From NCBI RefSeq assembly GCF_026239655.1, contig NZ_JAPIVO010000006.1, forward strand, positions 1-64,000: a stretch of 64,000 nt of DNA, read 5' to 3'. Below the pieces are notes generated by a model. That model was given only the letters and a program-made list of their open reading frames with translations. It made no database searches and was not told the origin of the DNA. The position numbers were made by a program, and so were the translations under genes. Shown one piece after another: positions 6,263 through 11,324 of the stretch. This stretch comes from Pedobacter sp. MR2016-24 (GTDB taxonomy: Bacteria > Bacteroidota > Bacteroidia > Sphingobacteriales > Sphingobacteriaceae). Every line of letters begins with the position of its first letter. Position 1 is the stretch's first letter.

Positions 6263-6709
6263 ATGAGTATTTCTGAAATCTTGAATAAAGCACATTCTGG
6301 ATGGCGTTATGTGGTGATCATCTTATTATTGGTTGCTTTTACTAATGCATTAATGGGCTTTTTAGGTAAAAAACCTTATACTGAAGGTAACCGTAAATTA
6401 AATGTATTTGCGCTGATCAGTGCACACATTCAGCTACTGATGGGCTTAGCATTATATTTTATAATGGGGGTTTATAAATACGATAGTTCTACTGCCATAG
6501 CACGTTACTGGAAAATGGAGCATATCAGTATGATGATCATTGCAATTGTGCTGATTACTGTCGGTAATTCACGCTCAAAGAAGGTGGATAGCGCATTGAT
6601 GAAACACAAAACTATATTTATCTATTTTGGTTTTGCATTGGTATTGATTACTGCGGCAATTTTAATGATGGTTAAAGCAGACGGAAGTCGCCACTTATTT
6701 GGCATGTAA
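6263..6709 (+). CDS. Small four-helix membrane protein with one histidine per helix
   Basis: The 148-residue product has four predicted membrane segments (about 16-34, 48-70, 86-102 and 116-137) and no signal peptide. Histidines lie at or near the ends of the helices (H11, H55, H87, H115), and the N-terminal HSGWRYVV stretch is conserved among Bacteroidota homologues as I recall them. The arrangement resembles small b-type cytochromes, and some homologues are named cytochrome B, but haem binding is inference. It stands alone between the amidohydrolase genes (divergent) and the trp leader, with its own likely promoter. Confidence 0.75.
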   Translation: MSISEILNKAHSGWRYVVIILLLVAFTNALMGFLGKKPYTEGNRKLNVFALISAHIQLLMGLALYFIMGVYKYDSSTAIARYWKMEHISMMIIAIVLITVGNSRSKKVDSALMKHKTIFIYFGFALVLITAAILMMVKADGSRHLFGM

Positions 6710-6728
6710 TTATTTTTACGATTTTATT

Positions 6729-6757
6729 TTGGTTTATTAGATTTATTTATATTTTTG
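6729..6757 (+). promoter_or_regulatory. trp operon promoter
   Basis: TTG at 6729-6731, an 18-base spacer and TATTTTTG at 6750-6757 match the Bacteroidota primary promoter closely. Initiation about 6-7 bases downstream would fall at or next to the ATG of the leader peptide (6764), so the leader mRNA would be essentially leaderless. Confidence 0.75.
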
Positions 6758-6763
6758 CTAAAC

Positions 6764-6841
6764 ATGATTAACAATACACATACTTGGCAATGGCGTGGTA
6801 ATTCTGAAAAGAGTTTCGTCGCAGCCTTGTGTACCTTATAG
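6764..6841 (+). CDS. trpL: Trp operon leader peptide, Trp-x-Trp type
   Basis: The reading frame encodes 25 residues beginning MINNTHTWQWRGN and ending CTL before TAG at 6839-6841. Two TGG codons lie at 6785-6787 and 6791-6793, separated by one Gln codon; Trp is otherwise rare, so this density is telling. It starts directly after a strong promoter and is followed by a terminator hairpin ahead of trpE, the classic layout for ribosome-mediated attenuation. Downstream segments CGTCG (6817-6821) and TGTGT (6828-6832) can pair with CGACG inside the terminator stem (6877-6881) and ACACA (6863-6867), giving a candidate antiterminator that a ribosome stalled on the Trp codons would leave free. Function is inferred from layout; no protein evidence exists. 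Confidence 0.75.
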   Translation: MINNTHTWQWRGNSEKSFVAALCTL

Positions 6842-6871
6842 TTTATCAACCTAAACCAAACCACACATACT

Positions 6872-6902
6872 AAACCCGACGTACAACACGTCGGGTTTTT
6901 TT
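6872..6902 (+). terminator. trp attenuator terminator hairpin
   Basis: AAACCCGACGT (6872-6882) and ACGTCGGGTTT (6888-6898) form a perfect 11-bp stem with loop ACAAC, followed by a T run to 6902. It sits between the leader peptide and the trpE ATG at 6916, so it must be read through for trp expression, as expected of an attenuator. Confidence 0.85.
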
Positions 6903-6915
6903 GTTTTATCAGCAC

Positions 6916-8328
6916 ATGAAGAAGATCAATATCAATACATTTTATAAGAAAAGACTAGCAGATACGACTACTCCTGTGAGCATTTATCTGCGTTTGAGGG
7001 ATGTTTTCCCAAATACGCTTTTACTGGAAAGTTCGGATTACCATAGCAGGGAAAACTCTGTAAGTTATGTCTGTGCAGACCCTGTAGCGGGAATTATCCT
7101 GCAGAACGGCAAACTATCTACTTATTTCCCTGACGGTACAAAGGAGGAGAAAGAAGAGTTTATACTTGCAGACGAGATTGAAAGCTTTAAAGCGAACTTT
7201 GATGTTCAGCCGATTGAAGAGCAACGGTATATTTCTACTGGTCTGTTTGGTTATTTTACCTGGAATACGGTTCAGTATTTTGAAGATATCAAGTTTGGGG
7301 CTATTACTGCAAAAGACGAAGAAATTCCGCTGATGCAATACCACGTTTACCGTTATATTATAGCGATAGACCATTTCAAGAATGAGGTAACGTTATTTAA
7401 AAATGATTTTGACCACCTAGAAAAAGGTGATCTCGGAAAAATAGAATACCTGATCCAGAACAAGAATTTTCCTGAATACAGTTTCGATACTGTAGGAGCA
7501 GAGTCATCCAACCTGACCGATGACGGTTTTAAGGCTATTGTGGAGAAAATGAAAACACATATTCTGCGAGGGGACGTTTTTCAGATTGTTCCTTCAAGGG
7601 CGTTTAATCAGGGTTTTTCTGGTGATGAATTTAATGTTTACCGTTGCCTGAGATCCATTAACCCTTCCCCTTATCTGTTTTATTTCGATTACGGGAGCTT
7701 TAAACTTTTTGGCTCTTCTCCTGAAGCTCAGATCACGATCAAGAAAAATGTAGCTAATATCTTCCCGATTGCAGGTACATTCAAACGTACTGGAAATGAC
7801 GAGGAGGATGCTGAACTGGCCAGACAACTGGAGCAGGATCCTAAGGAAAGTGCGGAGCATGTAATGCTGGTTGACCTGGCCAGAAATGACCTGAGCAGAC
7901 ATTGCAGAAATGTGCAGGTAAAATCTTTTAAAGAAGTACAGTATTATTCTCATTTGATACACCTGGTTTCTAAGGTGAGTGGTAATCTCCAGGAAGGAGT
8001 CTCTGCTTTTAAAGTTGTTGCAGATACCTATCCGGCAGGAACTTTAAGCGGCGCGCCAAAGTATAAAGCAATGCAGCTGATTGACGAATATGAGGGGCTG
8101 GCGCGTAATTTTTATGCCGGTGCTCTGGGCTATATGGGCTTTGGTGGTGAGTTTAATCATGCCATTATGATCAGGACATTTATGAGCAAAAATAACCAGC
8201 TGCATTACAGGGCGGGTGCAGGTATCGTGGCTGATTCTATAGCGGAAAATGAATTGAACGAAGTAAATAATAAGATTGCAGCCCTGCGTAAAGCAATTGA
8301 GATGGCTAAAGAAATTAATCATATTTAA
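6916..8328 (+). CDS. trpE: Anthranilate synthase component I
   Basis: TrpE converts chorismate and ammonia or glutamine-derived ammonia to anthranilate, the first committed step of tryptophan synthesis. The 470-residue product has the N-terminal regulatory region with LLLES at about 35-39, the site that binds feedback tryptophan in known TrpE proteins, and the PVSIYLRLRD stretch before it. The chorismate-binding domain carries FQIVPSR, SPEA, IAGTFKRTG, DLARNDLSRHC and TLSGAPK motifs. I take the ATG at 6916 rather than the in-frame TTG at 6901 because the TTG lies in the terminator T run. trpG follows 9 bases later. Expression is probably controlled by the upstream attenuator as well as by feedback inhibition. 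Confidence 0.97.
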   Translation: MKKININTFYKKRLADTTTPVSIYLRLRDVFPNTLLLESSDYHSRENSVSYVCADPVAGIILQNGKLSTYFPDGTKEEKEEFILADEIESFKANFDVQPIEEQRYISTGLFGYFTWNTVQYFEDIKFGAITAKDEEIPLMQYHVYRYIIAIDHFKNEVTLFKNDFDHLEKGDLGKIEYLIQNKNFPEYSFDTVGAESSNLTDDGFKAIVEKMKTHILRGDVFQIVPSRAFNQGFSGDEFNVYRCLRSINPSPYLFYFDYGSFKLFGSSPEAQITIKKNVANIFPIAGTFKRTGNDEEDAELARQLEQDPKESAEHVMLVDLARNDLSRHCRNVQVKSFKEVQYYSHLIHLVSKVSGNLQEGVSAFKVVADTYPAGTLSGAPKYKAMQLIDEYEGLARNFYAGALGYMGFGGEFNHAIMIRTFMSKNNQLHYRAGAGIVADSIAENELNEVNNKIAALRKAIEMAKEINHI

Positions 8329-8337
8329 ATTAAGGAC

Positions 8338-8910
8338 ATGCAGAAGAAAGTATTGGTTATAGATAACTATGATTCGTTCACCTATAACCTGGTGCATTTA
8401 ATAAATGAATTGGGCAGAGAAGCCGAAGTATGGAGGAACGATAAGTTTACGCTGGATCAGGTAGATCAGTTTGATAAAATATTATTGTCACCCGGACCGG
8501 GAGTGCCTCATGAAGCAGGCTTATTGCTGGATGTGATCAGGACTTATGCCCCAAAGAAAAGTATACTAGGTGTATGTCTGGGTCAGCAAGCCATTGCTGA
8601 AGCTTTCGGGGGAACATTGTTCAATCTTGGCAGACCCATGCATGGAATTGCGACTCCTATCGCCGTACTGGATAAAGAGGAGCTGCTTTTTAGAAACTGC
8701 CCCGAAAGTATTAATGTAGGCAGATATCATTCCTGGGTAGTTAATCAACAGGATTTACCTTCTTGTTTAAAAATAACGGCAACTGATGTAAAGTCTGAGA
8801 TCATGGCATTGAGGCATGAGACTTATGATGTGCGCGGGGTGCAGTTTCATCCGGAAAGTGTGCTGACAGAATTCGGAAAACAGATGATGCAAAATTGGTT
8901 AGAAAATTAA
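8338..8910 (+). CDS. trpG: Anthranilate synthase component II, glutamine amidotransferase
   Basis: A 190-residue class I glutamine amidotransferase. The oxyanion and nucleophile region is SPGPG at about 51-55 and GVCLGQQ with Cys80; the other triad members are His171 and Glu173 in HPES. It supplies ammonia from glutamine to TrpE. PabA-type proteins are nearly identical in sequence, and a single amphibolic subunit may serve folate synthesis as well. It is directly between trpE and trpC; the next start is 3 bases after the stop, so no trpD gene intervenes as it would in the common trpEGDC order. Confidence 0.95.
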   Translation: MQKKVLVIDNYDSFTYNLVHLINELGREAEVWRNDKFTLDQVDQFDKILLSPGPGVPHEAGLLLDVIRTYAPKKSILGVCLGQQAIAEAFGGTLFNLGRPMHGIATPIAVLDKEELLFRNCPESINVGRYHSWVVNQQDLPSCLKITATDVKSEIMALRHETYDVRGVQFHPESVLTEFGKQMMQNWLEN

Positions 8911-8913
8911 CAG

Positions 8914-9705
8914 ATGAATATATTAGATAAAATTGTAATACGGAAAAAGGAAGAAGTAGCGCTGGCTAAAACATTAGTTTCTATTGCTGAACTGGAGAAG
9001 GGACTTCATTTTAACCGTACACCCTATTCTTTCAGAGAATTTTTGCTGGCTGAAGACAGGAACGGTATTATTGCAGAATTTAAGCGGCGTTCTCCCTCTA
9101 AAGGTATCATCAATGCGAATTCTACGGTTACTGCAGTGACAACAGGTTATGCCGCTGCTGGCGCATCTGCTATCTCAGTGCTAACGGATGCTGATTTTTT
9201 TGGCGGTCATTCCAATGATCTGCTTGAAGCGAGAGCTGCTAATCAGGTTCCTCTGTTGCGTAAGGATTTTATGATTGATGAGTATCAGATCCTGGAAGCA
9301 AAAGCTTTAGGGGCAGATATTATTTTATTAATTGCTGCTATTCTGACACCTGCTGAAATTGCCGGTTTCGCCGGTTTGGCGAAGCGTCTGGGCTTAAATG
9401 TACTGCTGGAAGTGCATAATCTGGAAGAACTTCAACGGAGTATCCATCCTGATGTAGATGCTATTGGAGTGAATAACCGCAATCTGGCCGATTTTTCTGT
9501 AGATATTCAGACTTCCTTTAAGCTGGCTGAGGAGATACCTGCTGAATTTTTAAAGATATCAGAAAGTGCCATTAGTGACGTAAAGACGATCAAACAATTA
9601 AAAGGTGCTGGTTTCAATGGATTCCTGATTGGTGAAAACTTTATGAAGACCTCAAATCCTGCTGCCGCAATGCAGGCTTTTGCAAAGGAGTTGATCTCGG
9701 TATAA
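8914..9705 (+). CDS. trpC: Indole-3-glycerol-phosphate synthase
   Basis: TrpC closes the indole ring of carboxyphenylamino-deoxyribulose phosphate to indole-3-glycerol phosphate. The 263-residue monofunctional TIM barrel shows the signatures IIAEFKRRSPSKG (about 49-61), LRKDFMIDEYQ with the catalytic Lys, LLEVHN, and IGVNNRNL, and ends with SESA and LIGENFM phosphate-binding motifs. It is not fused to TrpF. It is the last gene of the local trp cluster: the next gene, hflX, has its own promoter starting inside the end of trpC. The substrate-forming enzymes TrpD and TrpF must be encoded elsewhere. Confidence 0.96.
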   Translation: MNILDKIVIRKKEEVALAKTLVSIAELEKGLHFNRTPYSFREFLLAEDRNGIIAEFKRRSPSKGIINANSTVTAVTTGYAAAGASAISVLTDADFFGGHSNDLLEARAANQVPLLRKDFMIDEYQILEAKALGADIILLIAAILTPAEIAGFAGLAKRLGLNVLLEVHNLEELQRSIHPDVDAIGVNNRNLADFSVDIQTSFKLAEEIPAEFLKISESAISDVKTIKQLKGAGFNGFLIGENFMKTSNPAAAMQAFAKELISV

Positions 9706-9727: not shown

Positions 9728-10921
9728 ATGGGAAAAGCGAAAACTTATGATACCGCGCTTAAACAGGAACGGGCTGTCCTTGTTGGCGTAATCAGGCCGG
9801 GAGAAAAACCGGAAGAAACTAAAGAATATCTTGATGAACTTGCCTTTCTGGTAGATACTGCCGGTGGGGTAGTGGAAACTAGTTTCACACAAAAAATGCT
9901 CCGTCCTGAACGGTCAACTTTTGTAGGAACAGGAAAGCTGGAAGAGATAAGAGCCTACGTGAAGTCGGAGGAGATAGATATGGTTGTTTTTGACGACGAA
10001 CTATCCCCATCACAACTGCGTAATATTGAAAAAGAACTGGAAGTGAAAATTCTGGACAGGAGTAATCTGATCCTTGACATTTTTGCAGGAAGGGCACAAA
10101 CTGCACAGGCAAAAACACAAGTAGAACTTGCACAGCTGCAATATTTATTGCCACGGCTTACACGCCTCTGGACTCACCTTGAGCGTCAGAAGGGTGGTAT
10201 TGGTATGCGTGGTCCGGGGGAAACCCAGATTGAGAGTGACAGAAGGATGATTTTGGAAAAGATCTCTTTACTGAAAGGCAGACTGAAGCTGATTGATAAG
10301 CAAAACGAAACACAGCGTAAAAACCGTGTTCAGCTGATCAGGGTAGCATTGGTAGGTTATACCAACGTAGGTAAATCTACGATTATGAACATGGTTTCAA
10401 AATCTGAGGTATTTGCAGAAAACAAACTGTTTGCTACGCTGGATACCACAGTGAGGAAAGTGGTGATTGACAATTTGCCCTTTTTACTTTCTGACACAGT
10501 TGGATTTATCAGAAAACTTCCCCATCACCTGGTAGAATGTTTTAAATCAACACTGGATGAGGTACGGGAGGCAGATGTGCTGATTCACGTAGTTGATGTG
10601 TCTCATCCCAATTTTGAGGATCAGATCAATGTGGTGAATGAAACTTTAAAAGAACTCGGTGCAAGGGATAAAGCAACTATTATGGTATTCAATAAAATTG
10701 ATGCCTACGTAAGTCCGGAGGCCCCTGAATCACATGAAGAGGAAAAGGTAACACTGACACTTGAAGATTTTAAACGCAGCTGGATGGCACAAAACAATGC
10801 GCCTGCGATATTCATTTCTGCTTTGCATAAAGAGAATCTGGATGAGTTTAAACAAATGTTGTATGATCAGATAGTTGCCCTGCATACTGAGCGGTATCCG
10901 TTCGACAAATTATTATACTAA
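9728..10921 (+). CDS. hflX: GTPase HflX
   Basis: HflX is a ribosome-associated GTPase that splits stalled or heat-damaged 70S ribosomes in other bacteria. The 397-residue product has the N-terminal HflX domain (about 25-115), the coiled region with GGIGMRGPGETQIESDRR at about 157-174, and the G domain with GYTNVGKST at about 213-221, DTVGFIRKLPHHLV (G3, about 258-271) and NKID (G4). Length is normal for the family. It begins a run of closely spaced genes with rbfA, both ribosome-related. Confidence 0.96.
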   Translation: MGKAKTYDTALKQERAVLVGVIRPGEKPEETKEYLDELAFLVDTAGGVVETSFTQKMLRPERSTFVGTGKLEEIRAYVKSEEIDMVVFDDELSPSQLRNIEKELEVKILDRSNLILDIFAGRAQTAQAKTQVELAQLQYLLPRLTRLWTHLERQKGGIGMRGPGETQIESDRRMILEKISLLKGRLKLIDKQNETQRKNRVQLIRVALVGYTNVGKSTIMNMVSKSEVFAENKLFATLDTTVRKVVIDNLPFLLSDTVGFIRKLPHHLVECFKSTLDEVREADVLIHVVDVSHPNFEDQINVVNETLKELGARDKATIMVFNKIDAYVSPEAPESHEEEKVTLTLEDFKRSWMAQNNAPAIFISALHKENLDEFKQMLYDQIVALHTERYPFDKLLY

Positions 10922-10940
10922 TACTAAGCGCAAAAATATC

Positions 10941-11324
10941 ATGGAAAGTAAACGTCAACAGAAATTTGCCGGTATACTACAAGAAGAATTAGCTGCAATT
11001 TTCCAAAGGGAGGGTGCAGAATACTTACCGAATACATTAGTTACCATTACTAAGGTCCGTGTTTCTCCGGATCTGGCAGTAGCTAAAGTTTATCTGAGTT
11101 TCTTAAGTACAAACAATACAGCACTATCAATCTCTACAGTGAATTCACATGCCGGAGAAATCAGGTATAAGTTAGGTGCACGTATTCGTCATCAGGCAAG
11201 GGTGGTACCTACGCTTACGTTTTTTGTAGACGATACAAATACTTATGTAGAGCATATGGATAAGATCTTCGAAAAGATTTCAAAAGAACGTACCTCAAGC
11301 GAAGAAGAGACTACTGAAGACTAA
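10941..11324 (+). CDS. rbfA: Ribosome-binding factor A
   Basis: RbfA is a small KH-like protein needed for late 30S maturation and 16S 5'-end processing. The 127-residue product starts MESKRQQKFAGILQEELA and has the family motifs ITKVRVSPDLAVAKVYLSF and IRYKLGARIRHQARVVPTL, with FFVDDT before a charged tail. I use the ATG at 10941; a longer in-frame start at 10875 would overlap hflX and add a non-conserved extension. It follows hflX by 19 bases and precedes the M23 peptidase gene by one base. Confidence 0.96.
   Translation: MESKRQQKFAGILQEELAAIFQREGAEYLPNTLVTITKVRVSPDLAVAKVYLSFLSTNNTALSISTVNSHAGEIRYKLGARIRHQARVVPTLTFFVDDTNTYVEHMDKIFEKISKERTSSEEETTED

Follow-up and report, generated by a model that had tools for sequence, protein, structure and literature searches.

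The tryptophan operon trpE-trpG-trpC of Pedobacter sp. MR2016-24 is, with a probability of roughly 0.9, controlled by a ribosome-mediated attenuator whose leader peptide would be translated from the very start of the transcript. The locus lies in the window, i.e. the whole stretch of 64,000 nucleotides that was analysed (positions 1 to 64,000 of contig NZ_JAPIVO010000006.1, from a genome of 5.83 Mb); all window coordinates refer to its forward (+) strand. On comparative grounds we consider it very likely that the attenuator is real, the mechanism being most likely the classical one. This type of regulation is familiar in general and barely described in this bacterial group.

Leader locus and its conservation in the genus

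The leader region fills the gap between a same-strand ORF (6263-6709) and the ATG of trpE at 6916. Three main parts could be identified. Firstly, a putative promoter spans 6729-6757, with a -33-like TTG (6729-6731) and the -7 element TATTTTTG (6750-6757) of the TAnnTTTG type; TTTG / TAnnTTTG is the -7 consensus of Bacteroidetes (PMC6847099). It was assigned from sequence, consensus and conservation, the Bacteroidetes -7/-33 promoter type lying outside the scope of the E. coli-type promoter scan. Secondly, a leader peptide gene runs from the ATG at 6764 to an in-frame TAG (6839-6841) and encodes MINNTHTWQWRGNSEKSFVAALCTL, with the codons for Trp8 and Trp10 at 6785-6787 and 6791-6793. Thirdly, an intrinsic terminator (6872-6898; AAACCCGACGT/ACAAC/ACGTCGGGTTT, a stem of 11 pairs closing a loop of 5 nt) with a T tract behind it lies between the leader ORF and the structural gene; the terminator scan returned one site, compared to 0.3 expected. 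A preliminary description of this DNA had already named the promoter end at 6757, the ATG, the stop at 6841 and the 11-bp terminator before trpE, and all of these are present in the sequence. The peptide itself is longer than had been given, since the 13 residues quoted there are the first ones of 25.

The operon downstream consists of trpE (anthranilate synthase component I, 6916-8328), trpG (8338-8910) and trpC (8914-9705). On the same strand, trpC is followed by two genes named from their translations, one for an hflX-like GTPase and one rbfA-like (9728-11324), which are possibly read-through targets of the attenuator.

When the region 6710-6915 was shuffled by dinucleotides, a short ORF with WW or WxW appeared in 19 of 5000 shuffles, and such an ORF with a -7-like element 4-8 nt upstream in one of 5000. 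For the comparison within the genus, the window was combined with 80 related trpE loci of the Pedobacter group, found by sequence and nearly all from organisms named Pedobacter. In all 81 loci, TTTG is followed after 5-7 nt by a start codon, the ORF encodes a W-x-W peptide and a terminator is present, so that a short reading frame carrying regulatory Trp codons precedes the trp gene in each. The gap between TTTG and the start codon measures 5 nt in 2 loci, 6 nt in 56 and 7 nt in 23, and the start codon is ATG, swapped solely for GTG, in two loci. The pattern of leader and attenuator is thus far beyond chance across the genus. Loss of the Trp codons in close relatives had been put forward as one observation that would speak against the attenuator; an alignment of relatives, as had been suggested, shows them retained throughout the Pedobacter-group set (81/81).

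The constraint can be followed at the codon level. Both TGG codons are invariant in the 59 aligned leaders of standard length (59/59), while codon 9 between them encodes Gln, Leu or His; at codon 11 Arg or Gln prevails, and in several codons the variation falls chiefly on the third position. In one clade the C-terminal half of the peptide differs by small indels among near relatives (KTDCAGCV vs NELRWLRMNKI), implying that it is the N-terminal half, containing the Trp codons, that is selected as a peptide.

Predicted transcript start

In Flavobacterium johnsoniae the start site lies 4-5 nt past the -7 element (PMC6847099). Applied to our loci, this spacing puts the predicted transcription start of the window at 6762-6763, i.e. 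1-2 nt ahead of the leader ATG, and gives predicted 5' UTRs of 0-3 nt over the 81 loci. Leaderless initiation at the trpE leader, taken as a start codon no more than about 0-5 nt from the RNA 5' end, is predicted on these grounds, and we regard it as quite probable.

An attenuator with a leadered peptide is the strongest competing explanation, although an improbable one: transcription would start further upstream, and TATTTTTG at 6750 would not be a promoter. Leaderless mRNAs are indeed a small minority in Bacteroidetes: they amount to 5.5% in F. psychrophilum (PMC9723704), and 5' UTRs shorter than 10 nt make up 3.7% in B. thetaiotaomicron (PMC7366714). Longer spacings also exist, as in flavobacterial-type leaders. 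In the Pedobacter locus L121 (genome G097) the W-x-W leader is kept and the nearest -7-like element, TAATTTTG, lies about 55 nt upstream of the ATG, and in three loci of other Bacteroidia (L156, L158, L162) 18 nt separate the -7-like element from the leader start. Leaderlessness is therefore not universal, and the L121 leader, which is probably leadered, offers a natural contrast to a leaderless start. A start further upstream is however difficult to reconcile with a -7 element being kept at 5-7 nt from the start codon in every one of the 81 loci. In addition, the conserved positions in the upstream alignment cluster in the -7 block, which is among the most conserved columns, and in a second block some 30 nt upstream of it.

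Shine-Dalgarno sequences are hardly used in Bacteroidetes. A leader ORF at the very 5' end of the RNA would solve the timing, in that the ribosome could reach the short ORF fast enough for attenuation.

Alternative RNA structures and a second leader before trpD

Helices were counted on an alignment of 65 sequences (A1). The terminator (3:4) is paired in 97% of the cells, and four of its pairs show changes on both sides. The antiterminator (2:3, 6817-6881), formed by CGTCG at 6817-6821 with CGACG at 6877-6881, is paired in 85%; its covariation score is 0.234 compared to 0.142 in shuffles, none of the 500 shuffles reaches it and the slid controls are all lower. At one of its pairs (columns 62/142) 38 sequences have U-A and 23 have C-G, and at columns 63/141 a C-G or U-G pair becomes A-U in L080 and L081, counts that include shared ancestry and correspond to a few events, not 25 independent ones. 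In the same two loci, which represent one lineage, the 3' arm of the terminator is altered too (GCCCTGCG ... CGCAGGGC), which indicates that segments 2, 3 and 4 moved together. Antiterminator and terminator share segment 3 and are mutually exclusive; the covariation of both helices argues for this, with a weak signal in the window alone.

The preliminary description had overlooked the 1:2 hairpin (6793-6822), which is predicted by the minimum free energy (MFE) fold of the window. Segment 1 corresponds approximately to the second Trp and the Arg codons and segment 2 to the 5' half of the antiterminator, so that ribosome-free RNA would have segment 2 sequestered with segment 1. The upper helix is paired in 88% of the cells, with 15 cells changed on both sides versus 5.5 in shuffles. 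When the RNA that a ribosome stalled at Trp10 would leave accessible was folded, 5-14 pairs between segments 2 and 3 formed in every locus, and the antiterminator fold energies of the 27 tested loci had a mean z of -1.7 against shuffles. Since the window sequence by itself yields an antiterminator no better than expected by chance (p = 0.16 against shuffles), its support comes from the relatives. The two pairings proposed earlier are both complementary and fared differently: CGTCG/CGACG is the one that covaries, and the inner helix of TGTGT (6828-6832) with ACACA (6863-6867), seen in folds, is conserved loosely. Many relatives have just a four-base UGUG:CACA in another register, and a second clade has little there.

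The element ATAGTTTATCAACCTAAACC is strongly conserved and contains a hairpin (GTTTA 6841-6845 / TAAAC 6852-6856) nested in the antiterminator, which is paired in 95% of the cells and whose covariation is not above shuffles. GTTTATCA within this element can alternatively pair with the transcript start. The MFE fold places this candidate long-range helix, which would form when no ribosome is on the RNA, between 6765-6776 (UGAUUAACAAUA) and 6837-6848 (UAUAGUUUAUCA); it is paired in 91% of the cells with no covariation, and for this reason we do not claim it. Both the hairpin and the 5' long-range helix are plausible but unproven. It is conceivable, if rather doubtful, that Sphingobacteriaceae, and probably many Bacteroidia, regulate their trp operons through leaderless leader peptides and that the AUG region at the 5' terminus also serves the RNA switch, base-pairing with the conserved GUUUAUCA before a ribosome starts; besides stalling at Trp codons, initiation at the 5' terminus would in that case act as another input. 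A loop of ATAGTTTATCAACCTAAACC, TCAACC (6846-6851), is conserved in both clades, in one of which it is not part of the ORF, and pairing explains only part of its conservation.

The trp pathway of this genome is split between trpE-trpG-trpC in the window and trpD-trpF/trpB-trpA on another contig (G000:C16). The latter operon, located via a pattern search, comprises trpD, a trpF-trpB fusion of 598 aa (L298, 2649-4445) and trpA. A second Trp leader, which the preliminary description had likewise missed, lies 5' of trpD at L298 1531-1656 (about 297530-297655 of G000:C16), with the layout TATTTG, 7 nt, ATG, MIQTNGLNNWWWHNAAA (containing WWW) and a terminator. When this genome was compared with 29 relatives, the script found the trpD leader 5-8 nt from TTTG in 29 of the 30 genus members, and the 30th encodes WWW too. 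Downstream of the Trp codons, GTAACCC pairs with GGGTTGC of the terminator at 7 of 7 pairs in all 30 members. In six of them C-G has changed to U-A, and a mismatched pair combination, which the search patterns permitted, occurs in none of the 30. As judged from these pairings, the trpD operon appears to have an attenuator of its own, built like that of trpE, and the pathway split over two operons would carry two attenuators.

For the trpE leader, the course of events that we infer from start to stalling and read-through is as follows. RNA polymerase would start at about 6762-6763, placing the AUG at 6764 at or near the RNA 5' end, where it would be used without a 5' leader. With ample charged tRNA-Trp, the ribosome would pass both Trp codons; segment 2 would be covered or, after the ribosome departs, be held in the 1:2 hairpin, and the 3:4 terminator would halt transcription before trpE. 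With scarce charged tRNA-Trp, the ribosome would stall on Trp8 or Trp10 and cover segment 1, allowing 6817-6821 to pair with 6877-6881, so that the terminator would be blocked and trpE transcribed. The preliminary description had read the locus in this ribosome-mediated way, and the Trp codons of the 81 loci together with the compensatory changes in the alternative stems argue for that reading.

The terminator could also be controlled by a factor other than the ribosome, such as an RNA-binding protein like TRAP or tRNA binding to a T-box, with the ORF being incidental. The high conservation of ATAGTTTATCAACCTAAACC outside the ORF in one clade, with a loop that pairing leaves partly unexplained, is what such a factor would have in its favour. 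The codon-level constraint with its invariant TGG codons, the placement of the 1:2, 2:3 and 3:4 segments and the independent WWW leader before trpD nevertheless make it very unlikely, and no Rfam match to a T-box or another known riboregulator was obtained at the locus, which counts against a T-box. That the terminator merely ends the upstream gene, whose same-strand ORF stops at 6709, while trpE has its own unregulated promoter, can practically be dismissed: promoter and leader ORF precede the terminator in every relative, and the 17 nt from the terminator stem to the trpE ATG in the window leave no room for another promoter.

Known systems and related leaders

Ribosome-mediated attenuation at the trpE locus can be compared with four described systems. 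Within Bacteroidetes, a trp leader RNA has already been described: Bacteroid-trp (RF01692), listed in 2010 as a cis-regulatory motif (Weinberg et al. 2010, PMC2864571), which the preliminary description, citing proteobacteria, had overlooked. It precedes the trp operon of F. psychrophilum and was noted to resemble the leader of E. coli (PMC6414381); in this species, hints of attenuation by leader peptides upstream of amino-acid operons were also reported (PMC9723704). Like our locus, Bacteroid-trp is the leader of a Bacteroidetes trp operon, and its trpE members over the cut-off encode a peptide and end in a terminator. These peptides have WWW, whereas the Pedobacter trpE leader has W-x-W, and in both of these members 18 nt separate the -7-like TTTG from the ATG, which by the same rule gives a 5' UTR of about 13 nt. 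RF01692 gave no match in window positions 6600-7050 up to E = 10 (cut-off 49 bits) and none across this genome at E <= 1; the trpD leader, scored directly, reached 22.3 bits. Over the class, the model exceeded its cut-off in 4 of 119 genomes, with several sub-threshold matches just 5' of trpE. The survey of trp leaders indicates that attenuation of trp genes in this group extends beyond what the Rfam model detects.

The E. coli/Salmonella trp attenuator (RF00513) shares the Trp leader peptide, the 1:2, 2:3 and 3:4 helices and the intrinsic terminator before trpE. It differs in having adjacent Trp codons, which in Pedobacter are separated, and the Pedobacter leader has no Shine-Dalgarno sequence and almost no 5' UTR. 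With this Trp_leader model, the trpE leader scored 16.9 bits and the trpD leader 30.3 bits (E 1.3e-4), both below the gathering score of 41. In Sinorhizobium meliloti, the transcript of trpL (rnTrpL) likewise has the ATG of its Trp leader peptide at the 5' end, with attenuation before trpE(G) (PMC7298713), but this is another phylum with no shared sequence shown, and trans functions of peptide and RNA are known there. Streptomyces lividans trpL1 encodes a leaderless WWW leader peptide with a terminator before trpE (PMC8079986); being actinobacterial, it is alike in design only. In the literature covered, mostly papers outside subscription, we found no description of a leaderless trp leader in Pedobacter. 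Attenuation of the E. coli type, Bacteroid-trp and the leaderless trpL of Sinorhizobium and Streptomyces are known; what our results strongly suggest as new is a leaderless Bacteroidota variant, its leaderlessness being predicted.

Within the genome, the conserved TTTATCAACCTAAACC has its only exact match at the trp site. Allowing two mismatches gave seven places versus three for the reversed control, and those of these places that were read held no leader. Pattern searches for leaderless Phe leaders in the same genome yielded counts at control level, and those for leaderless His leaders counts somewhat above it, with no plausible leader among the loci checked.

Among 59 other trpE loci of the family Sphingobacteriaceae, to which Pedobacter belongs, the script detected a WW or WxW leader ORF with a terminator in 51 and a start codon 4-10 nt past a -7-like element in 42. 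Beyond these 42, L205-L208 have a plain TTTG 5 nt before the start, and in several family loci missed by the script the Trp codons are visible by eye. Most Sphingobacteriaceae trpE genes have WW/WWW leaders in the same placement. In the wider class, the script found leaders in 21 of 31 loci, with mixed spacings. One genus (L137, L146, L184) has single, far-apart Trp codons (NNNW...GW) and no Trp cluster. In another Bacteroidia family, L165 and L166 have WRW leaders upstream of trpE; separated Trp codons are therefore not unique to Pedobacter.
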